Of a DNA stretch of 64,000 bases, positions 6,065 to 59,532 are shown one piece after another. Position 1 is the stretch's first letter. Each line of letters begins with the position of its first letter. The translations under genes and the position numbers were made by a program. A model generated the notes under the pieces. It had not been told where the DNA came from, ran no database searches, and saw nothing but the letters and a program-made list of their open reading frames with translations. The DNA comes from Thermoanaerobacterium xylanolyticum LX-11 (GTDB taxonomy: Bacteria; Bacillota; Thermoanaerobacteria; Thermoanaerobacterales; Thermoanaerobacteraceae), in NCBI RefSeq assembly GCF_000189775.2, contig NC_015555.1:2119001-2183000 (forward strand), in the 5' to 3' direction.

Positions 6065-6082
6065 TTCTCTTACCTCCAATTT

Positions 6083-7567
6083 TTATAGTTTGTTGTGAAC
6101 CTCAAACAAGTTTTTGAGATCCCTTGTCATAAGTTTAAAGAATTGAAATCCCTTTTCGTACTGCTGGACCTTTTCCTCTTGAGGCATGAAAACTTTCTTA
6201 ATCTTCACCATCTTATAAGTTGCCTCTAATACATCTTTGTAGACTCCTAATGCACAAAATCCTAACAAAGCCGAACCTAAAAGCTCAGGTTCTTCCACAT
6301 TTGACACCTTTATAGGCAGTCCCAATACAGACGAGAAAATTTCCATCCAAAGCTCAGAGTTTGTGCCACCACCTCCAGCTCTTATTTCTTTTATATTTAT
6401 ATTATTGTCTTTTACAGCCTCAAAAAGCATTCTCAATGAATATGCAACGCCTTCTAAACCCGCCTTTATCAAATGCCCTTTTGTGTGACTGTTTTTCAAT
6501 CCAAAATAGACGCCAGAAGCAATGTTGCCAATCTCTTTGTCCCTCTCTCCTGTGATATAAGGCAGGAAAAACAGATTGGAAGTGTCAGCATTTAATGCTT
6601 CCTTTGTTAATTCATCATAACTCATGTTAAAGATATTGTCCCTAAGCCATCTTAAAATTATGCCTGCATTGTTTATAGCTGCTCCTACAAACCACTTTCC
6701 TGATGAAAGGTAGTATGTCTGAAGCCTCATTAAATCCTCCTTGTCAAGGACTGCATCAGGATACGCAACTCTAAACATTCCTGTGGTGCCTATATTTATT
6801 GCACCAACTCCATCATCGAATGCTCCAATACCTATTCCTACGGCACCACCATCGTACACGCCAGGCAGCAGTTTTACATCACCATTCAACCCCAAAAGCT
6901 CTTTCGATTTGTCGGGAAGTTCAGCTAAAATCACATCTGAAGGCACAATCTCAGGAAGCCTATCCTCGTCTATACCTAAAGCACTAAGTGAGTAACTATC
7001 CCATTTAAGGGTATTTATATTCATTATTCCTGTGGCAGATGATATGCTGGGCTCTGTATACGGCTTATTTAAAAGCTTTGATATGATGTAGTCTTTTGAG
7101 CTTAAAAAGTATTTTGATTTTTCAAAAATATCTCTCCTCTTTCTCTTAAGCCAATATATCTTAAAAAGCGGCGCATGAAACGTAGGAGCAAATCCAGTCC
7201 TTTTGTACATCTCATTTACGTCAATATCGTTTAGCAATTCTTCGTAAGTTTCTTTCGACCTCGTATCAAGAAGCGTCATTATCCCCGTCAATGGTTTTAA
7301 ATCCTCATCGACAGGTACAAGACCAAACATGTATGTTGACGGTATAACAAGTGAAATCGCATCTTCGTAACCTTTTGACGCTTCTTTAGCCGCCTTCACA
7401 AATGTAGAAAACAAGACTTCAGGATCGTGTTCCGCTTTCCCGTCGTCCCCTTTAAAAAGCGGTATCTCGCACCTATAAAGGCTTAATACATTTCCTTCCT
7501 TGTCTACAACACCTGCTTTAAGGTTTGTTGTGCCTATATCTATACAAAGAGCTAATCCCCTATCCAT
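6083..7567 (-). CDS. gntK: Gluconokinase, FGGY family
   Basis: 494 residues. Phosphorylates gluconate with ATP to 6-phosphogluconate, the substrate of the next gene gnd. The FGGY kinase N-terminal phosphate loop is seen in CIDIGTTNLKAGV (residues 8-20), the central GVYDGGAVGIG segment contacts ligand, and the C-terminal ATPase part has AGGGGTNSELWMEI. Start ATG follows GGAGG. A xylulokinase-like substrate cannot be excluded from sequence alone, but adjacency to gnd supports gluconate. Confidence 0.85.
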   Translation of the reverse strand: MDRGLALCIDIGTTNLKAGVVDKEGNVLSLYRCEIPLFKGDDGKAEHDPEVLFSTFVKAAKEASKGYEDAISLVIPSTYMFGLVPVDEDLKPLTGIMTLLDTRSKETYEELLNDIDVNEMYKRTGFAPTFHAPLFKIYWLKRKRRDIFEKSKYFLSSKDYIISKLLNKPYTEPSISSATGIMNINTLKWDSYSLSALGIDEDRLPEIVPSDVILAELPDKSKELLGLNGDVKLLPGVYDGGAVGIGIGAFDDGVGAINIGTTGMFRVAYPDAVLDKEDLMRLQTYYLSSGKWFVGAAINNAGIILRWLRDNIFNMSYDELTKEALNADTSNLFFLPYITGERDKEIGNIASGVYFGLKNSHTKGHLIKAGLEGVAYSLRMLFEAVKDNNINIKEIRAGGGGTNSELWMEIFSSVLGLPIKVSNVEEPELLGSALLGFCALGVYKDVLEATYKMVKIKKVFMPQEEKVQQYEKGFQFFKLMTRDLKNLFEVHNKL

Positions 7568-7582
7568 ATTAATCCTCCACGA

Positions 7583-8563
7583 CTATAATTTTATCACTCC
7601 GTCAGGCTCTTCGCCATTCAATACTTTCTCTATGTCTGATACAACTTTGTCGCCCATGCCTTTTAAGCATTCTCTTGTGTATGCAGATATGTGAGGAGTT
7701 ATCACCACATTCTCATATTTCAAAAGTGGATGATTCTCGTCTATAGGCTCGTTTTCTACAACATCTAATCCCACACCTGCCACTTTTCCATCATCAAGAG
7801 CTTTCATCAAAGCCTCGTTGTCTATAAGCTCCCCTCTGGCTGTATCCACAATGTAGACACCATCTTTCATCATAGAAAACTGCTTAAATGATAGCATGTG
7901 ATAATTGCCCTTATTAAGTGATGCATTTAGAGATATCATATCTGCCTCTTTTAAAAGTTCTTCTAATGTTTCTACAGGCTCAGCACCTCTTTCACGTATC
8001 AAACCAGATGGTACGTACGGATCGTAAGCTATAACTTTTGCATTAAACCCATACCTGAGTATTTCACAAACTCTGCTTCCTATATTGCCAATGCCTATTA
8101 TGCCTATAACCTTATCCCTTAGCTCTGCACCCATGAAGCTGGCTCTTTCGCTCCACTTGCCATCTTTTACTTTAAGAGATGCTCCTCTTACCTTCCTGAC
8201 CACATCCAATAAAAGCGTCACAGCCGACTCAGCCACAGCTTCTCTTTCAACATACCCATCAACTTTTGTGACGTATGTGCCTTTTTCTTGAGCACTTTTT
8301 ATGTCGATATTATCGTATCCAATGCCATGCCTTGTTATAAGCAGCGTTTTATCCTTATACTCAAAAAACTCTTTATCGTAGTAAGGCTTGACGCTTGCAA
8401 CAATGATAGAATATCCCATAAGCTTCTCTGCCAGTTCTTTGCCGTGCATGTCGTAAGGAAATTGGAACCTGTCAACTTCCCCAAACTTTTTTAGCTTCTC
8501 TAAATGCTCAGGAAAATTTCTCCCGAAACTACTGGAATTTACAATAGCTATTTTCACACCCAT
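7583..8563 (-). CDS. D-isomer-specific 2-hydroxyacid dehydrogenase
   Basis: 326 residues with the NAD-binding motif GIGNIGSRV (about residues 155-163) and the catalytic triad of the family: Arg in TARGELI, Glu in VVENEPI and His in ITPHISAY. Start follows AGGAGG. Placement between uxaE and gntK suggests reduction of a keto-sugar acid, for example 2-ketogluconate to gluconate, which GntK could then phosphorylate. Glycerate or phosphoglycerate dehydrogenase activity is the alternative. The family is certain; the substrate is inferred from context. Confidence 0.85.
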   Translation of the reverse strand: MGVKIAIVNSSSFGRNFPEHLEKLKKFGEVDRFQFPYDMHGKELAEKLMGYSIIVASVKPYYDKEFFEYKDKTLLITRHGIGYDNIDIKSAQEKGTYVTKVDGYVEREAVAESAVTLLLDVVRKVRGASLKVKDGKWSERASFMGAELRDKVIGIIGIGNIGSRVCEILRYGFNAKVIAYDPYVPSGLIRERGAEPVETLEELLKEADMISLNASLNKGNYHMLSFKQFSMMKDGVYIVDTARGELIDNEALMKALDDGKVAGVGLDVVENEPIDENHPLLKYENVVITPHISAYTRECLKGMGDKVVSDIEKVLNGEEPDGVIKL

Positions 8564-42672: not shown

Positions 42673-43906
42673 GTGCCCAGTACTTTATTCGTCGGTATAG
42701 ACGTAAGCAGTCAATCTAATTCTGTTTTCTTTATTGATCAAGATGGCAATAACCTCATTAAGAAACCTTTTTCGGTTTCTAATGATATCCCAGGTGCTTT
42801 GTATCATCTCTGAGGTGATTTCTCATGCTAACGCTATTAATGCTTCCTGTGTCAAAATTGGTATGGAAGCCACTTCTCATTATGCATGGCACCTCCATCT
42901 TCACCTGGCTTCTTCTCCTGACCTGGCACCTTTTAACCCTAAATTCTTTGTTATGAATCCAGGTGTCGTCAAGGGTTTTAAAAAGGCTTATACCTATTTG
43001 CCTAAAACTGACGATTTTGATGCCAGAATCATTGCTGATTGTGTCAGATTCGGTAGGGTAAACCCTACTCCTATGCCTGACTTTAGGTATGCTGCGCTAC
43101 AGCGCCTTACTCGTTTTAGATACCATCTGGTACAAACTATATCCAGTGAAAAGAGCAGAGCTTTGAACCTCCTTTATCTCAAGTTCTCTTCATACAAGGA
43201 AGACTGTCCTTTTAGCGACGTCTTTGGCTCAGCATCTACTTCTGTTTTTGATTCTTTTACTCCTGATGAGATCGCTGTTATGCCTGTGGAGGAACTTGTA
43301 GATTTTGTCTTGAGTCATGGCAACAATAGATTGAAAAATCCCGAAGAAATTGCTAAGACACTTAAGTCTGCTGCTAATAGGGCATATCGTCTTAATCCTT
43401 ACATGTGCGATACTGTTAGCATGACTTTGACCATGACTCTTGAAAATATAAGATTTCTTGAGTCACAACTTAAAAAACTTGACAAAGAAATCTCTAAACA
43501 GCTTAATGGCTTTCACCAAACTCTGACTACTATTCCAGGTTTCGGTAATGTATTAGCCGCAGGCCTTGTGGCTGAGATTGGCGATGTTAAGCGGTTTAAA
43601 AATGAATGCGCTGTAGCTAAATTTGCAGGCCTCGTGTGGAATAAATATCAATCTGGCAACTTTAGTGCTGAAGATACCTCTTTAGCTAAGTGCGGTAACC
43701 AGTATTTAAGGTACTATCTTGTAGAAGCAGCTAATTGCGTAAGGATACACGCAAAAGAATATGCTGATTTCTACTGCAAGAAGTACAATGAGGTTACAAA
43801 ACACCAGCATAAAAGAGCCCTCGTCTTAACGGCACGTAAGCTTGTAAGACTGGTCTTTGCTATGCTGAGTAAAGGCCAAATCTACCAACCAGGAGGTAAT
43901 GGATAG
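42673..43906 (+). pseudogene. IS110-family transposase, frameshifted
   Basis: The start is the GTG at 42673-42675 behind GGAGG (VPSTLFVGIDVSSQSN). The first frame ends at a TGA at 42811-42813, while homologous sequence continues one frame over as SEVISHANAINAS. A single extra base near 42800 accounts for it. The rest is intact: the Glu in GMEATSHYAW and DDFDARIIADCVRFGR complete the DEDD/RuvC-like centre, and the C-terminal TIPGFGNVLAAGLVAEIGD plus KFAGLVW and KCGNQYLRYYLVEAA form the second transposase domain. Without suppression, this copy cannot make full-length protein. Confidence 0.85.
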
Positions 43907-44344: not shown

Positions 44345-45859
44345 TTATTCTTCTTTTTCCACATATTCAAACCAGTCAAAATATACCGGACATGAGGCCA
44401 TTTTACCATTTCCCGTTGAATACATGGCAATATATGTCCCTGTATAGCTATCTGCAACTTCTTCAGATATATAGCGGGTCATTGCTTTAGCAACAACTTT
44501 ATAATTTACGCCATCAATACTATAACCTATATGATAATCTGTTCTGGTAGCATTAATATTTAAAATTACATCTCCTTTTTCGATTGGCTCACAATATTCA
44601 ATAATCTTTACATCACCAATTCTCTTTCTTACAATTATCTTTCTTATCCCATTTAAAACTATAATTCCAATTTCATAATGATGTTCTTCATTTGCAAAAA
44701 TAGTAAGCCCTGCTTCATCTCCTTCTACATTTGATAGAAAAACCATTAATGCTTTTACAGAACAATTGAAATGTTCTTGCCTTCTGCCTATAAATGATTT
44801 AAATTCAACATCATCAAGTGTATATCTATCTCCTCGTATTGCTAAAAATCCTGGTCTTTCTTTAAGAGACCAATATTCATCCGAAGGATTCCTTCTAAAA
44901 TTCCAACAAAGATGCAATTTATCACTATTAAAATCATCTTTTGAATTTTCTGGCTCAACTATATAAACAGGTAAACTTGTCTCAACTTCCATATTAATTT
45001 CTATTGGTTTGCCATCATTTACTATAGGCCATCCATCATCTTTCCAAGTTACGGGGGCTAAAAACGTTTCCCTACCAAGATGGTGATATTGATAATTTAC
45101 AGGTCTTGTGGCAAGGAAAACCATCCACCATGAGCCATCATGAGCTTGTACCAAATCTCCATGCCCTGTTGATTGAACAGGATGTCCTACTAAGTGGCGA
45201 TGTGTAAGTATAGGATTATAATGACATCCCTCATATGGACCATCTATTTTGTCACTCCGCGCTATTGTCACCATGTGTCCTTTCCATGTTCCACCTTCAG
45301 CAGTAATCAAATAATATTTCCCATTTATTTTATAAATGTGCGGCGCTTCACATTGCTTATCTTCCCATCCTTGCCATATATATTTAGGCTCTCCTTTCAA
45401 ATATCCTGTCTCAATATCCATTTCCCACATAGTTATCCCCTTGTACCCGTTATGCCTCAAAATATATACTTTTCCATCATCGTCAAAAAAGATATCAGGA
45501 TCATGACCATCACCTTCAATCCATATGGGATCAGACCATTCCCCATATATATCATCTGTATAAACGTAAAAATGCCCTCCATGACTTACATTCGTAGTAA
45601 TCATATAAAACCTTCCATTATAATATCTTAGAGTAGGAGCCCATATTCCCATTGAATTTTTAGCATATTCAAGTTCCAATTGGCTGCGTCTCGTAAGGCA
45701 ATAACCTATTTGTCTCCAATGAACCAAATCCTTACTATGAAATATAGGAACTCCAGGAAAATACTCAAAGGAACTTGTAACAAGATAATAATCTTCTCCT
45801 ACTCTACAAATACTAGGGTCAGGATGAAAACCTGGAATAATTGGATTTTTAAATTTCAT
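44345..45859 (-). CDS. GH43 beta-xylosidase / arabinofuranosidase-type glycoside hydrolase
   Basis: 504 residues, no signal peptide. The five-bladed propeller has the catalytic triad in expected places: Asp14 in HPDPS, Asp122 in HDPDIFF and Glu171 in CEAPH. A C-terminal beta-sandwich (about residues 310-500, ending FDWFEYVE) is typical of the xylosidase-like GH43 subfamilies. It removes xylose or arabinose from short xylan or arabinan oligomers in the cytoplasm. No transporter or regulator is adjacent, and it lies alone between IS remnants and direct repeats, which suggests acquired cargo or a fragment of a rearranged locus. Confidence 0.88.
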   Translation of the reverse strand: MKFKNPIIPGFHPDPSICRVGEDYYLVTSSFEYFPGVPIFHSKDLVHWRQIGYCLTRRSQLELEYAKNSMGIWAPTLRYYNGRFYMITTNVSHGGHFYVYTDDIYGEWSDPIWIEGDGHDPDIFFDDDGKVYILRHNGYKGITMWEMDIETGYLKGEPKYIWQGWEDKQCEAPHIYKINGKYYLITAEGGTWKGHMVTIARSDKIDGPYEGCHYNPILTHRHLVGHPVQSTGHGDLVQAHDGSWWMVFLATRPVNYQYHHLGRETFLAPVTWKDDGWPIVNDGKPIEINMEVETSLPVYIVEPENSKDDFNSDKLHLCWNFRRNPSDEYWSLKERPGFLAIRGDRYTLDDVEFKSFIGRRQEHFNCSVKALMVFLSNVEGDEAGLTIFANEEHHYEIGIIVLNGIRKIIVRKRIGDVKIIEYCEPIEKGDVILNINATRTDYHIGYSIDGVNYKVVAKAMTRYISEEVADSYTGTYIAMYSTGNGKMASCPVYFDWFEYVEKEE

Positions 45860-46140
45860 ATCACACCTCTCCTAAAATAAAGAATATTCTCGGCAACTTC
45901 TGTTGCCTGATATATCTGAATTTCAGGAGACATCTTTTAAATTTATCCCCCAAAATTTCATTCTGAAATCCTTTTTCGATTTCCAATTCATTTACATCTT
46001 TATTTACATTGTAAGATTTTTTCTTTATATTTCCCTTTATTTAACATATATGGTTGCATTCTATCTTGACTTTTTTAAATCGCCCCAATAATCGAAATGG
46101 ATGGTGTTTTTACCATACTACTTGTTATTGAGGTGATTTT
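45860..46140. other. Intergenic region between GH43 and the transposase
   Basis: 281 AT-rich bases. It carries the divergent GH43 and transposase leaders and probably the left end of the transposase-bearing IS, but I could not find a clear inverted copy of the right-end sequence (GAAATCACTCAT side). The transposase ribosome site GAGGTG lies at its right limit. Confidence 0.5.
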
Positions 46141-47652
46141 ATGTTGGGCGCATGGCGTTCGCATTCTGATTATCAGTCTTTCCTTGTCGAAAATATTCAA
46201 CCCATTTATGCTTCAGATAAAAATCGTGTCATTCAATTTTCTGAAGCTTTATCTAAACTCTATAATTTAGATCTTGATGTTCTTAAACCTGTACTGGAAC
46301 CTTATTACTCTAATACTGGTTCTCCAGCCAAAAATCAGCCTGAAGTTTTTCGGTCTTTTGTACTTATGTCTCTTCTTAAATGTCACAGTATTACTAAATG
46401 GGTTTACATGCTTCATCATGATGACCTTTTGTGTTACATGATTGGCGTGTCTCCTGATAATATTCCTGGTGTTGGTACTCATTATGACTTGATTAACAGG
46501 TTATGGCTTGAAGATCCTGATATTGAAAAAGACCGACAGGATTCTCTCCATCCTTTTAAACGCAAACCACGTAAAAAACTTGCTAAAAATCAGAAGCTTC
46601 CACCACGCCACCCTGGTATTATACAGAAATTTGTTGATTTGGCTTTACAGGGTAAAATTTTTGAGTCAAGACCTGAGAAGCTTCTTCAACAAATTTTTGC
46701 CGATGTTGCTGTTAGGCCTTCCGCCAATGATGGCATCCTCGGTGATATTGAAAAACTTACTATTTCCGGTGACGGTACTTGTATTAAAACCGGCGGAAGT
46801 CCTTTCGGTATTAGAACTTGTGATTGTGCTAATAAGGGTATATTTAATTGTGACTGCCATCGCAAGTTCTCTGACCCCGATGCTCGCTATGGTTGGGATA
46901 GTTATCATGAGACATGGTTTTATGGTTATTCTGGTTATTTTTTAGTGACATACAACGAAGAGCTTAAATCTGATATTCCGATTTATCTTCGCTTGGTTGA
47001 GGCTCCTCGTTATGATGGTGTTACTGCTATTATTGCTTTGTCTGAAGCAAGGGCTTTGTATCCTGATTTCGTTTTTGATAAATTTATTGGTGATTGTGCT
47101 CATGATAATTACCCTACTTATCATCTTCTTAATAAGTGGAATATTAAACCTGTAATTCCGCTTAATAAGAAGAATAAAAACAACAGCAAGTACCAAGGTA
47201 CTATTAAAATCAATGAAAATGGTATTCCTGTCTGTATGGCAGGATTATCTATGGTTTACAATGGTTTTATGAAAGACCGTAACAGAATTAAATGGCGCTG
47301 TCCTTTTGCGACTGGTAAAGTTGATTCATGTAATTGTAAAGATAAGTGCTCCTCTTCTGATTATGGTAGAACCGTTTATACGAAGCCTTCATCTGATCCT
47401 CGCTTGTTTACCGTCATTCCACGTGGTTCTGATGAATGGAAAGGCGAGATGAAAAAGCGAACTTCTTCTGAGCGTGTTAACAAAAGGCTTCTTAATGACT
47501 ATGAGTTGGAGCTATCTAAAACCAGAGGCAAAAAGCGTTGGTCTTTCTGGATTATGATACACTCTATTAATATCCATCTTGATGCTAGATTGAAAAAATC
47601 TAAGTTTGATTTTATTTCTATGCTTGATGGATTATTAGGTAGAGTAGCATAA
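46141..47652 (+). CDS. DDE-type IS transposase
   Basis: 503 residues with an N-terminal DNA-binding helical region and a DDE-type catalytic core: ISGDGTCIKTG (first Asp, near residue 218), FIGDCAHDNYPTYHLL (second Asp, near residue 320) and a C-terminal helix TSSERVNKRLLNDYELE carrying the likely Glu. A CDCANKGIFNCDCHRKFSD cysteine cluster in the core is unusual and may bind metal. It resembles IS1182/IS4-like transposases of clostridia; the exact family is not settled. Intact frame; GAGGTG before the ATG. The right end of the IS probably lies at about 47857. Confidence 0.85.
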   Translation: MLGAWRSHSDYQSFLVENIQPIYASDKNRVIQFSEALSKLYNLDLDVLKPVLEPYYSNTGSPAKNQPEVFRSFVLMSLLKCHSITKWVYMLHHDDLLCYMIGVSPDNIPGVGTHYDLINRLWLEDPDIEKDRQDSLHPFKRKPRKKLAKNQKLPPRHPGIIQKFVDLALQGKIFESRPEKLLQQIFADVAVRPSANDGILGDIEKLTISGDGTCIKTGGSPFGIRTCDCANKGIFNCDCHRKFSDPDARYGWDSYHETWFYGYSGYFLVTYNEELKSDIPIYLRLVEAPRYDGVTAIIALSEARALYPDFVFDKFIGDCAHDNYPTYHLLNKWNIKPVIPLNKKNKNNSKYQGTIKINENGIPVCMAGLSMVYNGFMKDRNRIKWRCPFATGKVDSCNCKDKCSSSDYGRTVYTKPSSDPRLFTVIPRGSDEWKGEMKKRTSSERVNKRLLNDYELELSKTRGKKRWSFWIMIHSINIHLDARLKKSKFDFISMLDGLLGRVA

Positions 47653-47905
47653 ATATTGAGATTCCATATACTGTTAATTTTTAAACCTATTTTATTAGGC
47701 TTTATTTCTTATACTCTTTTTTTAAATTGATTTTCATTATTTTACATTTTCTTTCCTCTTTTCAGTATTTTATCGCAAAGGCTTTGTTATTTTCTGTATC
47801 TAATTTTTAATTTATGCCATAGTATGACACTGGAAATTAGTTTCCGAAATCACTCATAAATCCAAAATCATATAATAAATTGTTATCATTTTATAATTTG
47901 CAATC
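47653..47905. other. Right end of the DDE-transposase IS with direct repeat copy 2
   Basis: About 250 bases without a gene. 47757-47857 is the second copy of the 101-base repeat. The remainder is AT-rich flank reaching the 3' end of the GH99-like gene remnant at 47906. Confidence 0.6.
47757..47857. repeat. 101-base direct repeat, copy 2
   Basis: Same orientation as 44058-44158 and 3,699 bases away, with two mismatches. Recombination between the two copies would delete the GH43 gene together with the transposase gene. Confidence 0.9.
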
Positions 47906-48085
47906 TCATACTAATTCTTGATATCTATAAAAAAACCTGCCATTTGGAGCTGTATCACCATATACATAAAATTCAGTACCGTCATTACCAAGTTTTATAT
48001 TGTCAGACCATTTAAAATCGAATCTAATCGGTCCTTTCTCAATTTCCATGCCTAAAGACTTCCTTGGAATTGCAAGTTCCATTTC
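47906..48085 (-). pseudogene. Detached C-terminal tail of the GH99-like fusion gene
   Basis: Sixty codons in the same frame as the gene upstream, after its TGA at 48086-48088. They read EMELAIPRKSLGMEIEKG, FDFKWSDNI and YVYGDTAPNGRFFYRYQ, the usual end of a CBM9-like carbohydrate-binding domain. The match in frame and domain logic shows that the original protein ran through to 47906. Confidence 0.82.
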
Positions 48086-50029
48086 TCATCCTAATATCCA
48101 ATAATGGATTTCATCCTCTGCAATTTCCCAATCCCAACCTCCTTTGCTGACCTCAAGAACAGTCGTTTCTGGTCCCATAACTCTTCTATTTACAATAAAA
48201 TTAACACCTTCCCAGTTAGGCTTTTGAGGGTCAGTTTTCAAAAGTAGCATCATCCAGTCGGAATCTGTCCATGGAGTAATATCTTTTACTGTTTTGACAT
48301 AAAAATATATATAGTTATCGTCTCTGGATACCTTCATCAGCTCAAAATCATTTCTGCCGGTATCATCTATATAAGGACCTGCCGATCCAAACCCTGGGTA
48401 GTTCCTTGATAATGCATCGCCAATATCGTCTCTGTACTCAGGCTGCACATCAATCCATTCATCAAAATTCCCATCAATAACGATCGTTTTGGGCAAGCCG
48501 GCTGTAGGTATTGGTCTTGCGCCTTTGAACTTTCTTGCATAATTTACAAACTGACAGTAATAATTGTCCACATACCCGCCTTTCATTGGTTCAATATCTC
48601 TGCTAAATTCATGATCGAATTGATCCACAAAAACATTTGGGGCAGAATAATGAAGAAATCCAGGCATTCTTCCTGCAATCCATTCATTCCAGCCCGTTAC
48701 AAATATAATCTTCGGGTCTAATTCCAATGCCCTTTTCCACTGTTCAGCAAAATTATAACCATATTCCGGTGTGAACCTCTCAGGGTATCTACCATTATGA
48801 AAACTCCTCCCGTGAGCTACAAATCTGCCATTTTTATCACGTTCACTCATGCATCCTAATGTCCATCCGCCCCTACCATCAGGGACCGCATTCTGGGCAA
48901 CACTCACGGATACCTCTTCTATTTTTTCAGGTTCCCTGGAACTATAAAAACCATGTTGCGGATAAACTTCAAGCCACGACCATTGATCGGGGGCTAGCGG
49001 TCCGTAAAAATAATCCGGCATAGGTCTGCGAAAAGTAAAGAAATCCAGTATTTCCTTTCTATCTTCGCCAATTTTCTCTTTATCATACAAAATCAATGGT
49101 TTACCGTCCCATATAAACCATAGATCCTTATAAAGTCCTTTAGAATAAACATCTTTATAAATTTCATAAACTCCATATGGTCCTGCCCAGAAATTAAACA
49201 GAAATGCCACACATGGCGTACGTTTACCTTCATTTCTTATTGCAGTGAAGATATCCATAATCTTTATGAATGTATCCTTGAAATAAGCCTGTGGAGGATT
49301 GCCAGGCTGGAAATTACTTACATCAAAAATAATAACATCTACTCCTGCATCGCTGAGCATTTGAGAATGTTTGCGAATTACATATTCATCCTGGTTGAGA
49401 TAGTATCCAAATAATGGTTCACCCCAGTGATGAGGATGCCAATATGGGCCCCATGGTGGACTTTCATCGCTATCAATTGCGCATGGATTTTTTTCCATGA
49501 TCTTTGTTACATCATACGGGCCACATAATCCTTCGCTTCCATAATTTATAAAATAAAACATGGCAATATACTTATCTTTTCGAATCCCGCCTACGTCATT
49601 GAAGGTTGATATATTCCTACCGAGCCTGTCTGTACTCACCCATGTGTCACTGAAGGTATCACGGAATCTTTCGCTGATGCAATCCCTGTTTTTATCGCCA
49701 ATAAGACTGGATTCAAGCATGAAAGTATATTCGGTTTTCTCTCTTAATCCCACTAATCTTGCCACTTGTTCGCCATTTATAAAAAAAATTACAGTGGACA
49801 TATTTATTATTCGCATCCAAGCAGCTATTTCAGCTTCAATATCGCAATTAACTTCTCCAAATACAACTTTATCTCTATATTCCTGAGTTAATTTCCGCAT
49901 GATGGTCGTAACTTCAAAACACGACTTGTTCCATGGGCTTTTAAAATGTATAAACAATGGTTTATCAGAGTTCGCTATCAAATTTCTGAAATTTTTAATC
50001 GTCAATTCAAAAAGATTATTATTGTCCAT
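48086..50029 (-). CDS. Thioredoxin-fold / GH99-like glycoside hydrolase / CBM9-like fusion, cut short by an in-frame TGA
   Basis: 647 residues, no signal peptide. Residues about 1-105 form a thioredoxin-like fold (KPLFIHFKSPWNKSCFEV), but the redox CxxC is reduced to Asn34-x-x-Cys37 and the usual cis-Pro is lost, so it is probably a binding module. Residues about 150-490 resemble TIM-barrel endo-mannanase-like GH71/99 proteins (GWNEWIAGRMPG near the end). Residues about 525-647 begin a CBM9-like domain (IVIDGNFDEWID) that stops early at TGA 48086-48088. It is last in the rhamnoside transporter operon. The TGA may reflect decay, error or readthrough. Confidence 0.72.
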   Translation of the reverse strand: MDNNNLFELTIKNFRNLIANSDKPLFIHFKSPWNKSCFEVTTIMRKLTQEYRDKVVFGEVNCDIEAEIAAWMRIINMSTVIFFINGEQVARLVGLREKTEYTFMLESSLIGDKNRDCISERFRDTFSDTWVSTDRLGRNISTFNDVGGIRKDKYIAMFYFINYGSEGLCGPYDVTKIMEKNPCAIDSDESPPWGPYWHPHHWGEPLFGYYLNQDEYVIRKHSQMLSDAGVDVIIFDVSNFQPGNPPQAYFKDTFIKIMDIFTAIRNEGKRTPCVAFLFNFWAGPYGVYEIYKDVYSKGLYKDLWFIWDGKPLILYDKEKIGEDRKEILDFFTFRRPMPDYFYGPLAPDQWSWLEVYPQHGFYSSREPEKIEEVSVSVAQNAVPDGRGGWTLGCMSERDKNGRFVAHGRSFHNGRYPERFTPEYGYNFAEQWKRALELDPKIIFVTGWNEWIAGRMPGFLHYSAPNVFVDQFDHEFSRDIEPMKGGYVDNYYCQFVNYARKFKGARPIPTAGLPKTIVIDGNFDEWIDVQPEYRDDIGDALSRNYPGFGSAGPYIDDTGRNDFELMKVSRDDNYIYFYVKTVKDITPWTDSDWMMLLLKTDPQKPNWEGVNFIVNRRVMGPETTVLEVSKGGWDWEIAEDEIHYWILG

Positions 50030-50135: not shown

Positions 50136-50999
50136 TTATCCTTTAATTCCTGTAAAAGTTATATTTTCAATAAAATATTTTTGACCAAATAAGAATATCA
50201 AAAAAGGTATCAAAGTCATCATTGTACATGCAGCCATTACATAATTCAATCCCTGAATTGTCCCTAACGCACCTTGTCCCATATTAGTAACACCAAGGGC
50301 GAGTGTCCATTTATCCTGCGTATCAGTATAAATCAATGGACCCATAAGGTCATTCCATGAACTAAAAAAGTAATTCATAATTAATACTATTATCATTGGT
50401 TTAGTATAAGGTATAATTATTTTTAGAAATATTGTCCAATAGCTGGCTCCGTCAATTTTTGCACTTTCTATAATTTCATCAGGAAAAGTTTTCATAAATT
50501 GCCTTAAGAAGAATATAGAAACAGCTCCCCCGCCAAACCATGCTGGTACCCACAAAGGATACAATGAATTAGTCCAACCAATTTTGTGAAAAATTGCGTA
50601 TAGCGGAATCATCATAACAGCATATGGTAACATCATTGTTGCAAGGACTCCAAAAAAAATTATGTCTCTTCCAGGAAATTTAATTTTCGAAAATCCAAAT
50701 GCACACATCAAAGCACTGAATGTACCACCTATAGTAACACCAAACACAACAATTAATGTGTTTTTTAAATAAACCAATATATATGGTATCCCTTTATAAT
50801 AACCGGGATATGAAAGTGCCACTACATAATTTATCCATTGTGGTTTTTCAGGTAAAAACCTGGGGGGAAGCATTCTAACTTCCTGTGTTGTCATAAGACT
50901 TTTCAGTATCATATTTAATACTGGATAAATAAATATAAAAGAGAGAACAGCAAGAACTGAAAATATAACAATCTTTTTTATTTTAGTCCTCTTTTTCAT
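50136..50999 (-). CDS. Carbohydrate ABC transporter permease, MalG type (CUT1)
   Basis: 287 residues with six membrane segments and the ATPase-docking loop IESAKIDGASYWTIFLKIIIP. It lies 3 bases after the partner permease. With the binding protein at 51961-53262 it forms a second CUT1 importer, set between a GH106-like rhamnosidase and a GH99-like protein, so rhamnose-containing oligosaccharides are the likely cargo (inference). As in the first transporter, no ATPase gene is nearby. Confidence 0.92.
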   Translation of the reverse strand: MKKRTKIKKIVIFSVLAVLSFIFIYPVLNMILKSLMTTQEVRMLPPRFLPEKPQWINYVVALSYPGYYKGIPYILVYLKNTLIVVFGVTIGGTFSALMCAFGFSKIKFPGRDIIFFGVLATMMLPYAVMMIPLYAIFHKIGWTNSLYPLWVPAWFGGGAVSIFFLRQFMKTFPDEIIESAKIDGASYWTIFLKIIIPYTKPMIIVLIMNYFFSSWNDLMGPLIYTDTQDKWTLALGVTNMGQGALGTIQGLNYVMAACTMMTLIPFLIFLFGQKYFIENITFTGIKG

Positions 51000-51002
51000 A
51001 GA

Positions 51003-51893
51003 TTATACCTCCTCATCACCATAAAATACCCACCTGCTAGTCCTGAAAACAATTAGAGTCAATATAAATATTATCGTGAACAAAACCCATGCTTGTGCTG
51101 AAGCATATCCCATTTTGAAATTCCTGAATCCATCCCTGAAGATGTTTAAAACAAGAAAATTTGTAGCATCCAAAGGTCCACCATCATCTGTCATAATAAA
51201 CACTTGAGTGAAAGTTTGTAAATTAGCTATAATACTCATAACTAAATTGTAAAATATTACCGGAGAAACCATAGGAATAGTTATATGCAGGAGTTTTTTT
51301 AAAGATGAAGCACCATCCAAATCTGCAGATTCATAATAACTTTTAGGAACATTATTAAAACCCGCAAGCCATATAAGCATTGGACCTCCTATACCCCATA
51401 GAGAAAAAATAATTATAGAAAATAATGCTGTTTTGGGCGAAGATATAAAAGGAAATGGTTTCAATCCAAATGAAGTAATAACTTTATTAAGTATGCCATA
51501 ATCAACATTGTAAAGATCTTTCCATACAAATGAAGCGGCTACAACAGGAATAATAACAGGTGAATACAAAATTGAACGAAAAATTTTTATTCCAATTATT
51601 TTTTGATAAAGAAGCAATGCTAGAAAAAAAGATAAAATTAAACCCATAGCCGTTGAAACTACGGCATATAAAATAGTTATTTTCAGAGAATGGATCACCC
51701 TACTGTCAGTAAATAAATCTGTGTAATTTTTTAGGCCTATAAACTCAGGAGTAGACAAACTATCGTAATTCGTAAAACTTATATACAGCGAAAATAACAT
51801 CGGAATAACATTAAAAAAGAGAATTCCCAATATGACTGGCAAAATAAAGCCATAACCTATAATACTTTCTTTCATTTTTGTTTTCTTTGACAT
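51003..51893 (-). CDS. Carbohydrate ABC transporter permease, MalF type (CUT1)
   Basis: 296 residues, six membrane segments, EAA loop YESADLDGASSLKKLLHITIP. The ribosome site AAAGGAG lies farther than usual from the ATG (about 15 bases), with the small palindrome GTAAAGTTTAC in between, so translation may be moderate or modulated. It follows a terminator-like hairpin after the binding-protein gene. Confidence 0.9.
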   Translation of the reverse strand: MSKKTKMKESIIGYGFILPVILGILFFNVIPMLFSLYISFTNYDSLSTPEFIGLKNYTDLFTDSRVIHSLKITILYAVVSTAMGLILSFFLALLLYQKIIGIKIFRSILYSPVIIPVVAASFVWKDLYNVDYGILNKVITSFGLKPFPFISSPKTALFSIIIFSLWGIGGPMLIWLAGFNNVPKSYYESADLDGASSLKKLLHITIPMVSPVIFYNLVMSIIANLQTFTQVFIMTDDGGPLDATNFLVLNIFRDGFRNFKMGYASAQAWVLFTIIFILTLIVFRTSRWVFYGDEEV

Positions 51894-51916
51894 AGTAAAC
51901 TTTACACTCTCCTTTC

Positions 51917-51954
51917 AAAAACCTGGGAGGCTCTAATACCTCTCCCAGGTTTTT
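51917..51954 (-). other. Terminator-like hairpin between binding-protein and permease genes
   Basis: A 13-base stem AAAAACCTGGGAG (51917-51929) / CTCCCAGGTTTTT (51942-51954) with a 12-base loop lies 6 bases after the binding-protein stop. On the minus strand the 3' arm ends in TTTTT, so it could act as a partial terminator or mRNA stabiliser that lowers permease output. Confidence 0.82.
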
Positions 51955-51960
51955 GCAAAA

Positions 51961-53262
51961 TCATTTACCAAATACCTTGTTCATCTCTTGCTGGCATTGT
52001 TTAGCCGCGGCTTCTGGAGATGAAACTCCCATCAATACCGATTCTATAGCGTTTTGCCAAGCTTTTTCAATCTCAGAACCTTTTGAAGGATCCTCTAACG
52101 TACATGTAAGCGGAGGAATATCATATTCAGGATGATATACAAATGCTTCTTGATTAAAATTCTTACTAGGAAGACTTCTCCATATATCACTATTAATTAA
52201 ACTTTTTCTTACAGGTACAGAATCTCCCGTTTCCATAAAAACTTTTTGTCCTTCACGAGAGACTATATAAAACACTAGCTCTGCGGCTAAGTCTGGATAC
52301 TTAGTATTTGCACTCACAGCATACCCGCTAGCACCTGACCCAACAACCGGTTTGTCAGGCATTATAGGAAATGTAACAACACCATATTTATCATGACCTA
52401 TTTGCTGTTCAAATGTTGTAATTAAAGGCCTAACCCAAAATACCATAGCGACTTTTTTTGAAAGAAAATCAGGTTCACCATTTACATAATCATTAGTAAA
52501 TATTCCCTCATCTACAAGGCTTTTAAAAGTTTTAAGCGCATTTATTGTTCCAGGAGTATCAAAGTCCGCAGAATTACCACCAGGATATGGTTTAGTAATA
52601 GTTCCTCCTAAACCCATTATCATAGGAATTGCTGCTGCCTGCCAGTTCAACTGAGCTTGGCATCCATATTGGACAATCTTATTTCCTTGCTTTTTAACAA
52701 GCTTTTTCGCAGTATCTAAAAACTCTTGCCATGTCCATCCATTTTTAGGAAAAGGAACACCTGCTTCAGTAAATAATTCTTTATTGTAAAATGTCACTAC
52801 ATGATTGTAATCTCTCGGTATCATATACTGTTTGCCTTTATATTGTCCTGTCTCAAGCATTGCAGGGAAGAAATCATCTTTAGAAACTCCAAATTTTTTG
52901 AAATAGCTATCAAGATCAAGTATAATATGCTTTGACGCAAACATCCCCACATCAACATCAGGAATCCAACATACATCAGCAAGCGTACCAGCAGATGCCT
53001 GTAAAATAATTTTTTGTTCATAATTTCCAGAATAAGGTTCATATTGTATAGTAACGTTTGGGTGTTTTGCCTCAAATCCTTTTGCAAATGCTTCAACTTC
53101 TTTTTTCATTCCAGGGTCATCCAGAGTTGCAAAGCGAAGTGTAATACGCTGATCATTAGATTTAACCGAATTTTTAGTTGAGTTGCTGCATCCAGTCAGC
53201 GTGAAAGAAAGCAACAAAGTAACAATAAGAACCATCAAATTAATTCTCAAAAGTTTTGACAT
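51961..53262 (-). CDS. ABC transporter sugar-binding lipoprotein
   Basis: 433 residues. Lipoprotein signal with lipobox LTGC (Cys about residue 25), then a family-1 solute-binding domain (RFATLDDPGMKKEVEAFAKGFEAKHPNV near its start, in part; NKELFTEAGVPFP; FVSREGQK-like IVSREGQKVF). It delivers sugar to the two following permeases. The ATG follows AAAGGAG. Its transcript probably starts near 53496, leaving a leader of about 235 bases. Substrate inferred to be rhamnosides from the upstream GH106-like gene. Confidence 0.93.
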   Translation of the reverse strand: MSKLLRINLMVLIVTLLLSFTLTGCSNSTKNSVKSNDQRITLRFATLDDPGMKKEVEAFAKGFEAKHPNVTIQYEPYSGNYEQKIILQASAGTLADVCWIPDVDVGMFASKHIILDLDSYFKKFGVSKDDFFPAMLETGQYKGKQYMIPRDYNHVVTFYNKELFTEAGVPFPKNGWTWQEFLDTAKKLVKKQGNKIVQYGCQAQLNWQAAAIPMIMGLGGTITKPYPGGNSADFDTPGTINALKTFKSLVDEGIFTNDYVNGEPDFLSKKVAMVFWVRPLITTFEQQIGHDKYGVVTFPIMPDKPVVGSGASGYAVSANTKYPDLAAELVFYIVSREGQKVFMETGDSVPVRKSLINSDIWRSLPSKNFNQEAFVYHPEYDIPPLTCTLEDPSKGSEIEKAWQNAIESVLMGVSSPEAAAKQCQQEMNKVFGK

Positions 53263-53515: not shown

Positions 53516-56500
53516 TTATATACAGAGCAATGACGCACTTCCAATTCCCAGTGGAAGCAATGCATACTTTTCAGTAAATCTATTAAAATCTACAAAAGTG
53601 TTAGGTCCAACAAATTCGTCATCAAAAATTCTAGCTATTCTATTAGGTCCCATTAAATTAAATAATGTAGTTGCAGCTACTATCTTTATTTCATTTTTCC
53701 CTTCTTTTAGTACATTAGTAACATCGAATACGTAAGGTTCCCAGTACTTAACATCAACATACTTATCATTTACATATAACTCAATACATGCAGCTTTTAC
53801 ATCGTTTATAATCAGATAGGCCTTCGCATTTTCTTTTTTGTATTCGATTTGAGAAACAAATTCTACTTTTCCTGCATAAAATGGATAACCAGATTCAGTC
53901 AAATCCTTGTAATTTGGTTTTTTAAATTTACCATCAATTGTAAAGTGTTTTTTGTTAAAGTCCATAACTATAAAGTTCCCAACTATATATACTGCTTCTA
54001 CTTCTGTAGGAAAATGATTCTTAAAATCTTTGACACTTATATGTGTACCTGGACCTGTGATATTATTTACCTTTTTACCCTCAATGGTTAGTTTGTTAAC
54101 TCCTTCGCAAATCTTTCCAGTCAAAGGTACTTTTGTGAAGTTAATGTCCTTCCAACTTTTATTAGGATCAAAAGCTCCAAGTTCTCCTCTCTGCTTTAAT
54201 GGCCTTATTTCTATATCATTTATGGTAATTCTATCTAAATTTTCTGCTACTTCTATAACTGCAAATATTTCTCCTTCCGGTATATTTATAACTTCAAAAG
54301 TATACTCTGCTTTGAAAGGTGTTCCATCATCCACTTTGTAAAAGTGCTGATTCCATGCATATGCTACAGGCTCATTTTCTAATACTTTTTTACCATCTAA
54401 ATAAAGTGTAACATCATTTAGTGGCAATACATTTTGCTCTAAAAAATTTACCTCCCAATTATCAACTGTAATTACTAAATCTTTTAAAGTAACGTCATCA
54501 TCTGTAAAGGCTAGCCCACTATCTAAATAGTTTGGAACTTTTTGAACATTGACATTTTCATCGGTATAATAAAGCAACATACTCCCCGCAGGGTAGAATT
54601 TAACAGAGATTTCTCTTCTTCCGTCCTTAACTATTGAAGGTATTGCGAAAATTTCACCACTCATAAGGTCTAAAATATATGGCTCTTCCTCATAAGGCAA
54701 AGATATAATTGCATTAATTTCTCTTTGTTCATCTGTATTTACAAGAAATATACTTCTACCTTCTTTTGCGATTCGACTATGACAATAGATCTTATCTGCA
54801 TTTTCTCCCGTCATTTTATCCGTTATCTTAATTCTGTAATCATAATACTTATCTACTATATCTAAAGCATCTTTCACAGAATTAACATATAAAACACCAT
54901 CAGGTAAATTCATATCTCCCAAAATACCATCAACACGTGAAGGCACAGGTTTTATAAATATTAACCTATCTGCTCCTGCTTGTTCTGCAAATTCTCTTAA
55001 AAGTTTTACAGTATTAGTTCTAAGTGTAAGAGAAGGTGGTACTATAACCGTAGAATATTTGTGTTGACCGATAATAAGTTTACCATCTTGCACTTTTGCA
55101 TGGCTCTCCATTATTATTTCATCGCCATAATGATAATCTAATTTCCATTCTCTCAGCATTGTTGATAACACTTCAAAATGTCTATTATAGATACTGTTTT
55201 CTACAGGAAATCCATTTTGTTTATGCAAAGGTGAATATTCGCTCCAAACACTTGCAATTGGATGTAAAACTAATATATCTACTTCTCTTTTCCCTTGCGA
55301 TACTGCATAGCTTATTCTACCTATATAATCTGCAAATTTACGTTCATCATCCCACCATGGTTGCTGATAATAAAGGTTTGCAGGATAATCTCTCTTCCTT
55401 TCACCCCTCATAGAATAAAGTGACAAGTGAGAGTTGACAAAACTTATGCCTAAAGCAGCTTCCCAATCAGCTATCCACTTACGATGATAAAAACTCACCT
55501 GTTGCCCAATTGTTCCAAATACTTCACAAAGTACTCTTTCTTTATTGAGCTGATCAGCCACAGATGATACCTGATTTACTGTTACTAGTTGATTTATATT
55601 CCTTCCTAATTTATCAATGCCTGGCCAATGCATAAATTCATAATGAGGCATTGCTGCTCCTATCCATTGTGTTTGAGAGACTAAGTCATCTTCTCCCATA
55701 AAGTGCCCTGTCATTTTAAGATTGTTTTTTTCACACCAATCATAATACTGCTTTGTCCAACTTTCTAAAAATAGCCTTGTAGCAGCATCATAAAAATCAA
55801 ATCTTATCTTCTTATAATCTCCAATATCAAAGAAAAGTTCTTTGACATGTTCCTCTATATTATAGCCTTTTAATTTTTTGAAAAAATCTGGTAAATATAT
55901 AGACCATGGAATAGCAGGAACATTGTAATAAATTTCCATCAAATAACATGGCTCATCAGTAAAGATACCGGGAATTTCTTTACCAAAATATTTCCCCACA
56001 GTTTCTTTGTATTTTTCATGAGTCACTTTTATAAATGTTTTTACAGCTTCAGGATTCATAAGATCTACATAACTGCTACCATTAAACCATAAATTTCCTA
56101 AAGGAGAAATCCTTTTGCATATAATGTATCTTTGTCCTTCCCAATCTATTTCAGACATAATTATATCGTTTTTAGTGATTTCATTAGATTTTATTAAAAC
56201 AAGAGCACTGCTTCGAAATTTTTCATTAGTATTAGGAACAATACCACCAGCAAAACCAGAAGGCCATTTATCTTCATCATATAGCCATGCATATGTGCCC
56301 GTCTCTCTTGCCGTTTCTGCACAAGCTTTTATCATATCCATCCATTCTTCTGACAAATAACCAGTAACTAACCCTACTCGTGAGTGCATAAAATAACTAC
56401 CCCATCCTTTTTCAGCCATATCTTTTATCTGTCTTTTGAGTTCATCTTTATCCAATTTATCATTCCAACTAAAAAATGGTGCGTTTCTATAAAGTGCTTC

Positions 56501-56527
56501 TGGATTTTTAAATTCTTCAAGTTTCAT
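53516..56527 (-). CDS. GH106-like alpha-L-rhamnosidase
   Basis: 1003 residues, no signal peptide. The N-terminal FKNPEALYRNAPFFSWN and KGWGSYFMHSR segments, GIFTDEPCY with acidic residues in the TIM barrel, TGHFMGEDDL and the C-terminal galactose-binding-like sandwich domains (YINDIEI-, DVTNVLKEGKNEI-type) are typical of GH106 and its relatives. It should release L-rhamnose from imported rhamnosides or rhamnogalacturonan fragments, feeding RhaA/RhaB just upstream. AGGAGG precedes the ATG. Family placement by eye; a related uncharacterised family remains possible. Confidence 0.8.
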   Translation of the reverse strand: MKLEEFKNPEALYRNAPFFSWNDKLDKDELKRQIKDMAEKGWGSYFMHSRVGLVTGYLSEEWMDMIKACAETARETGTYAWLYDEDKWPSGFAGGIVPNTNEKFRSSALVLIKSNEITKNDIIMSEIDWEGQRYIICKRISPLGNLWFNGSSYVDLMNPEAVKTFIKVTHEKYKETVGKYFGKEIPGIFTDEPCYLMEIYYNVPAIPWSIYLPDFFKKLKGYNIEEHVKELFFDIGDYKKIRFDFYDAATRLFLESWTKQYYDWCEKNNLKMTGHFMGEDDLVSQTQWIGAAMPHYEFMHWPGIDKLGRNINQLVTVNQVSSVADQLNKERVLCEVFGTIGQQVSFYHRKWIADWEAALGISFVNSHLSLYSMRGERKRDYPANLYYQQPWWDDERKFADYIGRISYAVSQGKREVDILVLHPIASVWSEYSPLHKQNGFPVENSIYNRHFEVLSTMLREWKLDYHYGDEIIMESHAKVQDGKLIIGQHKYSTVIVPPSLTLRTNTVKLLREFAEQAGADRLIFIKPVPSRVDGILGDMNLPDGVLYVNSVKDALDIVDKYYDYRIKITDKMTGENADKIYCHSRIAKEGRSIFLVNTDEQREINAIISLPYEEEPYILDLMSGEIFAIPSIVKDGRREISVKFYPAGSMLLYYTDENVNVQKVPNYLDSGLAFTDDDVTLKDLVITVDNWEVNFLEQNVLPLNDVTLYLDGKKVLENEPVAYAWNQHFYKVDDGTPFKAEYTFEVINIPEGEIFAVIEVAENLDRITINDIEIRPLKQRGELGAFDPNKSWKDINFTKVPLTGKICEGVNKLTIEGKKVNNITGPGTHISVKDFKNHFPTEVEAVYIVGNFIVMDFNKKHFTIDGKFKKPNYKDLTESGYPFYAGKVEFVSQIEYKKENAKAYLIINDVKAACIELYVNDKYVDVKYWEPYVFDVTNVLKEGKNEIKIVAATTLFNLMGPNRIARIFDDEFVGPNTFVDFNRFTEKYALLPLGIGSASLLCI

Positions 56528-56766: not shown

Positions 56767-58179
56767 TTATTTCCTGAGTTCACTATAATTCTTTATTATC
56801 TTTCTTCCCTCTTTTAAATCTTTGATGTATCCTAAGGCCATAAGTTGAACTATCACATTGCCATAGATTGAAGCTTCTACAGGTCCTGTTATGACTTTTC
56901 TACCGGTAACATCCGCAGTTAACTCACAAAGGAACTTATCCTGTATTCCTCCGCCAACCATATGGATAGTATCTATTTTTCGCCCTATAATGTCTTCTAA
57001 ATTGTTTAAGCAATTTTTGTATTGTTCAACTATACCATTGTAAGCAGCTCTCGCTATATCACCAATATCCTGAGGCAAACCCTGCCCTGTTTCTACACAA
57101 TATTGCTTTATTGCTTCAGCCATATCATCGGGAGCTATAAACAATTTGTCATCGGGATTAATTATAAACTCCTCATGCTCAGCTTTAGATGCCATCTGGC
57201 TGATCCCTGGAAATCCTATTTTTATACCATTTGAATTCCAGCTTTGTTTTAATTGTTGAATAATCCACAAGCCATTTATATTTTTAAGTAGCCTAATAAA
57301 GCCTTCTACTCCACCTTCATTTGTAAAGTTGTACTTTTTTGTATTTTCATTTATTATAGGACTTTCACTTTCAACACCTAATAGTGACCACGTACCACAA
57401 ATCAAATAGGCACTTGAACCGTTTTCAATTGGTGTACCCGCAACTGCAGATGCCGTATCATGGCTTCCAACTGAAATCACAGGAATATCAGATAGTCCTG
57501 TTTCTTCTTGAATTTCTTTTGATAGATAGCCAATTATCTTCCCCGGCATCAATATTTTTTGAAAAATGCTTTCCGGTATATTTAACTTTTTTATAAGATC
57601 GATCGCCCAATCCCTTTTTTCAGCATCCAGCATCTGTGATGTTGATGCAACGGTGTATTCATTGTATTTATCATTAGTCAGATAAAAGTTCAACAAATCT
57701 GGAATAAATAACAATGTCTTCGCATTATCCAATAATTCTGGGCGTCTCATTAAATCACAATACAATTGAAATATTGTATTAAATTCCATAAACTGTATGC
57801 CAGTAATATTATAAATCTCTTCTAATGGCAATACCTTTTCAACTTTTTTCATTATCCCATTTGTTCTCTGATCTCTGTAATGAATTGGGTTTGAAATTAA
57901 TTCATCGTTTTTATCAAGCAAGCCATAATCGACACCCCAAGTATCTATACCAATGCCGGATATTTTGATTTTCCTCTTTGACGCTATTTTTAATCCGTTT
58001 TTTAATTCGTGAAAAAGCCTCAAAAAATCCCAATAAAGTGATTGTCCCAGCTTGACTGGCTCATTTGGAAATCTATAAACTTCTTCGACATCGATTTTTT
58101 CACCGTCAAATTTCGATAACATAAGACGTCCACTAGAAGCACCAAAATCGAAAGCTAAATTATACACAATATCTTTCAT
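56767..58179 (-). CDS. rhaB: L-rhamnulokinase
   Basis: 470 residues, FGGY kinase family. N-terminal AFDFGASSGRLML (phosphate loop, residues about 9-21), GIGIDTWGVDYGLLD and C-terminal MVGGGIQDKFLCELTAD are typical of RhaB. It phosphorylates L-rhamnulose to rhamnulose-1-phosphate with ATP. It follows rhaA by 28 bases, completing the rhaM-rhaA-rhaB order. The aldolase RhaD needed next is not in the window. Confidence 0.95.
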   Translation of the reverse strand: MKDIVYNLAFDFGASSGRLMLSKFDGEKIDVEEVYRFPNEPVKLGQSLYWDFLRLFHELKNGLKIASKRKIKISGIGIDTWGVDYGLLDKNDELISNPIHYRDQRTNGIMKKVEKVLPLEEIYNITGIQFMEFNTIFQLYCDLMRRPELLDNAKTLLFIPDLLNFYLTNDKYNEYTVASTSQMLDAEKRDWAIDLIKKLNIPESIFQKILMPGKIIGYLSKEIQEETGLSDIPVISVGSHDTASAVAGTPIENGSSAYLICGTWSLLGVESESPIINENTKKYNFTNEGGVEGFIRLLKNINGLWIIQQLKQSWNSNGIKIGFPGISQMASKAEHEEFIINPDDKLFIAPDDMAEAIKQYCVETGQGLPQDIGDIARAAYNGIVEQYKNCLNNLEDIIGRKIDTIHMVGGGIQDKFLCELTADVTGRKVITGPVEASIYGNVIVQLMALGYIKDLKEGRKIIKNYSELRK

Positions 58180-58207
58180 TGAAATACCATCCTTTAGCCT
58201 TAAATTT

Positions 58208-59485
58208 CTAAGTCCGATTTTTTATAATTTCTTTTTCATATTCTTTAACAGCATCAATCCATGATGTACCAATAGGCACATTTTCGTCCATACAGTATTT
58301 GTTCCAAACGGAGTAAAATGGCAATGTTTTAAATTCCTCCATCAAAGCAAGCCTTGCACCAAAATTGCCTTTGTTCTCTTCTTCTAAAAGTAGATGAACA
58401 GGCTCTAATAGTGATATTAATATAGCTTTTAGCGTCGCTCTCGCGCCTATTACCCACGCCATTATCCTGTTTATGCTTGCGTCAAAGAAATCTAATGCAA
58501 TATATACTTTATCATAAGCATTACATCTTCTTATTTCTTTTGCTAATGAGAGCAAATCTTCATTTAAAATGACTACATGATCGCTATCCCAGCGAACGCC
58601 ACGGCTTACGTGAACCAGTAAATTATCATCAAATGTAAGTATTGATGATATCTTATCAGCTATACTCTCAGTAGGATGAAAATGCCCCATGTCAAGGCAC
58701 AACATTACATCATTTCTTGATGCATAATTCATATAAAACTCATGTGAACCAACCACATAACTTTCTGACCCGATACCAAATAGTTTGCTTTCAACTGAAT
58801 CGATGATGTTTGTTTTGTCGTATTTTACTGAAAATATTTCATCTAAAGATTCTTTAAGTATCTTTCTATGTTCAATTCGATTAGCAGGCAAATCTTTAGA
58901 ACCATCTGGAATCCAAATATTGTTGACACATTGGATTTTTAATTCTTTTCCTATCTCATTTGCGATTTCACGGCATCTTTTGCCATGTTCAATCCAAAAC
59001 TTCCTTATGTTTTCATCTTTGCTTGAAAGCGTATAGCCATCATTTGCTTTAGGATGCGAAAAAAACGTAGGATTAAAGTCAAGGCCAAGGCCATTTTCTT
59101 TTGCCCAGTCAACCCATTTCCTGAAATGCTCCACGTTTATTTCATCTCTGTCTACAAATTCACCATTTGTTTCTGCGTAAATGGCATGTAAATTCACTTT
59201 GTGTTTGCCTGGTATACGGCTTAAGGCTTTTTCAATGTCTTGCCTTAATTCTTCACCATTTCTTGCTCTGCCAGGCCAGTTTCCTGTAGCAAGGATTCCT
59301 CCACCACTTAATCCATTGGCACTTTTTTCAAATCCGGTTACATCATCACCCTGCCAGCAGTGAAGTGAAATACGAATCTTTTTCATTTTGTCTAATACTT
59401 CATCAGTATCTATGTCAAACTTTGCATAAATCTCTTTTGCATTATAATAATCATTTAAAATTTTATCTTTTTCTGCTTCATACAT
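58208..59485 (-). CDS. rhaA: L-rhamnose isomerase
   Basis: 425 residues from the ATG at 59483-59485; AAAGGA lies upstream with good spacing for this codon, not for the ATG three codons earlier. Converts L-rhamnose to L-rhamnulose. Early SLHCWQGDDVTGFE with GGILATGNWPG, the metal-site LDFNPTFFSHPKA, MLCLDMGHFHPTE and HVSRGVRWDSDHV are hallmark RhaA segments. Part of rhaM-rhaA-rhaB. Confidence 0.96.
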   Translation of the reverse strand: MYEAEKDKILNDYYNAKEIYAKFDIDTDEVLDKMKKIRISLHCWQGDDVTGFEKSANGLSGGGILATGNWPGRARNGEELRQDIEKALSRIPGKHKVNLHAIYAETNGEFVDRDEINVEHFRKWVDWAKENGLGLDFNPTFFSHPKANDGYTLSSKDENIRKFWIEHGKRCREIANEIGKELKIQCVNNIWIPDGSKDLPANRIEHRKILKESLDEIFSVKYDKTNIIDSVESKLFGIGSESYVVGSHEFYMNYASRNDVMLCLDMGHFHPTESIADKISSILTFDDNLLVHVSRGVRWDSDHVVILNEDLLSLAKEIRRCNAYDKVYIALDFFDASINRIMAWVIGARATLKAILISLLEPVHLLLEEENKGNFGARLALMEEFKTLPFYSVWNKYCMDENVPIGTSWIDAVKEYEKEIIKNRT

Positions 59486-59532
59486 AATAAACATCCTTTC
59501 AGGAAATGATAAGTATATTTTAAAATGTAAAA

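Follow-up and report, generated by a model that had tools for sequence, protein, structure and literature searches.

A gene of Thermoanaerobacterium xylanolyticum LX-11 is best explained as encoding a horizontally acquired cytoplasmic glycan hydrolase that carries a redox-dead thioredoxin module and has been hit by a recent nonsense mutation, a reading to which, taken as a whole, we assign a probability of roughly 0.55. The window analyzed, a stretch of 64,000 nucleotides, comprises positions 2119001-2183000 of the 2.53-Mb single-contig genome. On its minus strand, an open reading frame extends from an ATG at 50029, preceded by a good ribosome binding site (GGAGG), to a TGA at 48088-48086, yielding 647 amino acids; from N to C terminus, the fusion protein consists of a thioredoxin domain, a GH99-like barrel, and a CBM9-like beta-sandwich. 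The same three-domain fusion is present at 51-53% identity in two gut Oscillospiraceae MAGs, one from roe deer rectum (L024) and the other Faecalibacterium sp. UBA1762 (L025). The gene contains the following features, all on the minus strand.

49706..50014, minus: thioredoxin-fold domain, residues 6-108 (Pfam PF00085, fold match, alignment)
49919..49933, minus: remnant of the active site, W-N-K-S-C at residues 33-37 where W-C-G-P-C would be usual (alignment)
49796..49798, minus: Ser78 at the cis-Pro position, which is Pro in L024 and L025 (alignment)
48518..49660, minus: GH99/GH71-like (beta/alpha)8 core, residues 124-504 (Foldseek/VIA)
48671..48688, minus: N-E-W-I-A-G, residues 448-453, in which E449 is the first GH99 Glu, kept, and A452 replaces the second
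48089..48517, minus: CBM9-like beta-sandwich ahead of the TGA, residues 505-647 (AF2 model)
48080..48092, minus: AGGA (48092-48089), TGA, GAA, ATG (48082-48080), which may serve as ribosome binding site and restart codon of a 58-aa ORF
48086..48088, minus: in-frame TGA (homologue column N15 K3 D1 T1)
47909..48085, minus: 59 sense codons past the TGA, encoding the final strands of the CBM9-like domain and found in all full-length homologues
47906..47908, minus: TAA closing the family's normal reading frame

Distribution of the fusion

That this domain combination is unusual, as a first sequence-only reading had held, is borne out by its rarity. A pattern scan of one genome per species, covering 84,980 species, returned 25 loci, among which L024 and L025 carry the thioredoxin fusion; no further case was found in some 1,600 genomes, mostly Bacillota, plasmid records gave nothing but weak matches to the thioredoxin part, and no thioredoxin-GH99 fusion was found in the open-access papers searched. 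The three fusions and a fourth sequence, L026, which is 5′-truncated at a contig edge so that its N terminus is not in the data, form one clade with support of 100/100. In L025, the genes on either side of the fusion gene resemble, from sequence reading only, those for a sporulation sigma factor/SpoIIGA and MraW, surroundings that are unusual for a glycosidase. The same genome carries a second family member (L071, G102:C32:41600-44100) in two frames of 419 and 210 aa, split between the barrel and the C-terminal domain.

Other relatives bear different N-terminal modules, including laminin-G domains in L043 and Big_2 in L037. In L028 (ORF 5239-7893) and L027 (ORF 5281-7884), the GH core follows a calcineurin-like phosphoesterase/metallophosphoesterase, assigned by a Pfam match for L028 and by alignment for L027. 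In L032 (ORF 4027-7716), it follows a GH127 beta-L-arabinofuranosidase, which supports a role in plant-glycan processing. Several Bacteroidota members start, by sequence reading, with an apparent signal peptide, and the thioredoxin module occupies the place of the signal peptide in such secreted relatives. When read by eye, the N termini of the window, L024 and L025 proteins contain no signal-peptide-like stretch, which suggests that the fusion enzyme is cytoplasmic; the earlier description of the enzyme as cytoplasmic thus agrees with the visible N terminus, the location itself being what we infer from it.

A thioredoxin fold lacking the redox residues

Structural comparisons were made with an AF2 model of the read-through protein in which the TGA is read as Trp (mean pLDDT 80.7, pTM 0.80), which is weaker in the thioredoxin part because only three alignment rows cover that region. 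Residues 7-100 match Pfam Thioredoxin PF00085 above the cut-off (E=1.9e-13, 50.7 bits, cut-off 23.5), as do the corresponding domains of L024 and L025, and comparison of the domain with solved thioredoxins gave matches down to E=7e-16. Consistent with the fold proposed earlier for the N-terminal region, residues 3-110 of the model superimpose on E. coli thioredoxin with a Z of 12.4 and an rmsd of 2.6 A over 105 residues (VIA).

The redox residues were judged by alignment with seven canonical thioredoxins of related genomes. The position of the W-C-x-P-C motif is occupied by WNKSC, WNADS and WNSDS in the window, L024 and L025, respectively, such that the first Cys, whose loss had been recognized from the window sequence, is Asn in all three fusions and the second is C, S and S. 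In the same order, the buried Asp is replaced by H, L and L, and the position of Lys57 is occupied by E, E and I. With WNKSC, His and Ser78, the window copy displays none of the three marks of a redox-active thioredoxin (WCxPC, buried Asp, cis-Pro). All three fusion thioredoxins are therefore predicted from these substitutions to have lost the usual thiol chemistry. As judged from the alignment, loss of cis-Pro is confined to the window lineage, since L024 and L025 keep the Pro; the earlier claim of its loss holds for the window copy but not as a trait of the fusion family.

A role for the thioredoxin domain as a binding module is plausible but putative. The domain diverges fast (30% identity, versus 63% for the core), a pattern also compatible with a weakly constrained tag. 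In either case, the fusion would represent the conversion of a redox protein to a non-redox appendage. SSP411/YyaL proteins likewise join a thioredoxin-like domain to a glycosidase-like (alpha/alpha)6 barrel; as usually described, they differ from the window protein in barrel type and thioredoxin subfamily. A thioredoxin-like domain ahead of a glycosidase is already known from GH126 proteins, whose N-terminal thioredoxin-like fold has no CxxC in some members, as in C. butyricum (PMC7479077), and which thereby provide a precedent for such a conversion. However, GH126 proteins differ from the window protein in having an (alpha/alpha)6 catalytic barrel, and their thioredoxin-like part was modeled on DipZ (Rv2874) rather than on classical TrxA (PMC7479077).

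A barrel akin to GH99 and GH71

Residues 124-504 adopt a GH99-type (beta/alpha)8 fold in the model, matching human MANEA with a Z of 18.8 (rmsd 4.1 over 274 residues), a bacterial (Bacteroides) GH99 enzyme with a Z of about 18.2, and GH71 with a Z of about 15. A literature search on PDB entry 5ngw, a GH99-like barrel from the fold search, gave nothing relevant. The sequence scores lie below the thresholds for family membership: Pfam GH99 (PF16317) scores 18.6 bits where 33 is required, the Pfam WbsX cut-off is likewise not reached, and the barrel has no match among NCBIfam models. The two catalytic glutamates of GH99 lie in an EW[H/G]E motif that is conserved across life (PMC11025385), and the window protein reads TGWNEWIAGR, in which E449 is present and the second Glu, at +3, is replaced by Ala. 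This second Glu is absent from all 41 homologues in which the motif could be read (of 44 tree rows), its place being taken by A, M, V, S or T. A WbsX-type neighbor in L030 carries NEWSEG, indicating that loss of the second Glu is specific to the family of the window barrel. Thus, the window protein shares with the GH99 endo-alpha-1,2-mannosidases/mannanases (MANEA, BtGH99, BxGH99) the (beta/alpha)8 fold and the first catalytic Glu of the NEW motif, and differs from them in its C-terminal domain and gene context. The GH71 alpha-1,3-glucanases resemble it in placing a beta-sandwich after the barrel, but use a DxxE dyad (PMC12394665) where the window barrel has ExxA, at 13-15% identity. On the model, then, the barrel is akin to the GH99/GH71 group at the level of fold and a member of neither family; the earlier label of GH99-like is upheld for the fold (Z about 18), but does not extend to the defining ExxE pair or to Pfam membership.

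The barrel family is widespread, with members in Bacteroidota, Bacillota, Planctomycetota and Chlamydiota MAGs and 14 matching places in Paenibacillus mendelii alone. Its breadth, its occurrence beside polysaccharide-degradation genes, its position under the Pfam and NCBIfam cut-offs and its single glutamate together make it a candidate new glycoside hydrolase family, which by its sequences would have a different catalytic apparatus. This uncatalogued hydrolase family is of more interest than the stop codon. The missing second Glu counts against the predicted hydrolytic activity, and, as the replacement affects every homologue read, the barrel could instead be a non-catalytic pseudo-enzyme, with the whole protein binding glycan or acting as a scaffold. 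We regard this as unlikely given that many acidic and aromatic residues are invariant (including D231, D236, E449, D469, D478 and E480), that the family has many paralogues and polysaccharide-locus neighbors, and that the GH core is fused to the GH127 enzyme in L032. Across 21 sequences, D231, D236, D469, D478, E480 and D488 are invariant, and the barrel core contains 14 near-invariant acidic residues.

The C-terminal domain, residues 505-707 of the read-through protein, is modeled as a beta-sandwich (pLDDT 83) that resembles CBM74 (Z 11.4), the gamma subunit of ethylbenzene dehydrogenase (Z 10.0) and CBM9 (Z 9.5, 7nwn), in agreement with its initial description as CBM9-like. The likeness to CBM9 and CBM74 is one of fold, identity being about 15%; no Pfam family, and hence no CBM sequence model, matches the domain at E<=10, and a sequence search against the PDB gave no matches.

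The in-frame TGA

In the model, the TGA interrupts the CBM9-like domain between two of its strands. As first noticed from the letters, the frame continues beyond it for 59 sense codons to the TAA at 47908-47906, and all full-length homologues run past this position to the same end. Past the TGA, the window copy retains every one of the 15 conserved columns, and its ratio of conservation after to before this position (1.14) equals that of L024-L026 (1.12-1.15), indicating that selection maintained the frame until recently or continues to do so. This measure bounds the age of the stop weakly. In the homologues, the column holds N in 15 cases, K in three, and D and T in one each, and never W or C. 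Because TGA is at least two changes from every N, K, D or T codon, the codon it replaced did not encode the consensus residue of the family. The comparison with homologues points most simply to a recent nonsense mutation.

An error of sequencing or assembly in an otherwise intact gene carries some weight as an alternative, though we consider it improbable overall. The rest of the 2.1 kb contains no disruption and conservation past the TGA is as high as in intact relatives, both of which such an error would explain; against it, the genome is a single contig, rated 100% complete and of good overall quality, and, with the TGA two or three changes from the homologue codons, a single-base error would require the true residue there to deviate from the consensus. 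The species is represented by one genome, on which mutation and sequencing error are not separable. Quite unlikely, in our estimation, is a real TGA at which termination is followed by a restart at the ATG three bases on, with a second chain of 58 aa completing the CBM9-like domain. Such an arrangement would fit the AGGA 6 nt upstream of the ATG at 48082, as well as the conserved 58-aa ORF that runs on from there without interruption, but a comparable upstream match precedes 15% of internal ATGs in the window genes (53/347, versus 19/31 gene starts), Met is common here in homologues so that an ATG is expected anyway, and no aligned homologue is split at the TGA position. Still more doubtful is the fuller proposal that the stop is functional, with 647-aa and 58-aa chains produced by reinitiation jointly completing the CBM9-like domain in a protein with a half-replaced dyad and a structural, redox-dead thioredoxin.

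Readthrough of the UGA by selenocysteine, tryptophan or a suppressor would account for the 59 open codons, and the sequence-only reading had named it beside a recent nonsense mutation. The recency part of that reading is supported by the conservation, with sequencing error to be added to the choices, whereas readthrough finds no support and we give it next to no credence: the homologue column is N, K, D or T and never W or C, an RF2 gene is present, no tRNA-Sec scores over the cut-off, and the region after the UGA, in which a selenoprotein element would lie, folds no better than shuffled sequences (z 0.37). Selenocysteine and tryptophan insertion were rejected on these grounds. Two other candidates were also discarded, namely an old pseudogene, given the 15 conserved columns kept past the stop, and truncation by the neighboring IS element, whose end at ~47855 lies 50 bases beyond the TAA.

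Gene neighborhood and proposed function

The recent nonsense mutation favored above affects a gene that lies among genes for sugar uptake and metabolism, with the transporter, GH106-like, kinase and isomerase genes upstream of it and an IS element downstream.

50136..53262, minus: ABC sugar transporter, with permeases at 50136-50999 and 51003-51893 and a solute-binding protein at 51961-53262 (Pfam)
53516..56527, minus: GH106-like (alpha-L-rhamnosidase-like) protein (PF17132 24.1 bits, under the cut-off of 29)
56767..59494, minus: FGGY sugar kinase (PF00370/PF02782), by position a candidate rhamnulokinase, and L-rhamnose isomerase RhaA (PF06134, E=1.4e-189)
45881..47855, plus: IS element of 1.97 kb, with a transposase at 46141-47652 and four other copies 99% identical

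The IS element, which has 14 matches in the genome, most of them 97-100% identical, and whose transposase gives no Pfam match at E<=0.001, separates the fusion gene from a GH43 gene at 44345-45859 and has thus probably interrupted an operon. A search of 19 further genomes from this family gave no match at E<=1e-60 for either the permease at 50136-50999 or the GH106-like gene, and related genomes contain no match to the GH core. Between 44345 and 56527, the GH43, permease, solute-binding protein and GH106-like genes have GC3 values of 0.21-0.25, versus 0.31-0.42 for genes in the left part of the window. The missing matches and the low GC3 of the neighbors together point to a horizontally acquired cassette, the base composition suggesting a foreign origin; the fusion gene itself, at 0.33, is nearer to the genome than its neighbors are, which counts against such an origin. 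Among the relatives, neighboring genes include GH78-type rhamnosidases (L034, L041), SusD genes (L031, L034) and an RGL11-like gene (L024). The recurring rhamnosidases and the nearby rhamnose genes suggest that the substrate is probably a rhamnose-containing plant glycan.

Under the preferred reading of an acquired hydrolase with a disrupted reading frame, the fusion gene would have entered the genome with a sugar-uptake cassette comprising the ABC importer, the GH106-like and GH43 enzymes and rhamnose catabolism. Oligosaccharides, most likely derived from plant glycans that contain rhamnose, pectin side chains for instance, would be imported and then cut by the GH99-like barrel with the aid of the C-terminal CBM9-like domain, the redox-dead thioredoxin probably serving as a folding/solubility or docking module. 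By cutting off the terminal strands of the CBM9-like domain, the TGA would probably leave a product that is unstable or impaired. An IS110-family transposase gene is also present in the window, at 42734-43906.
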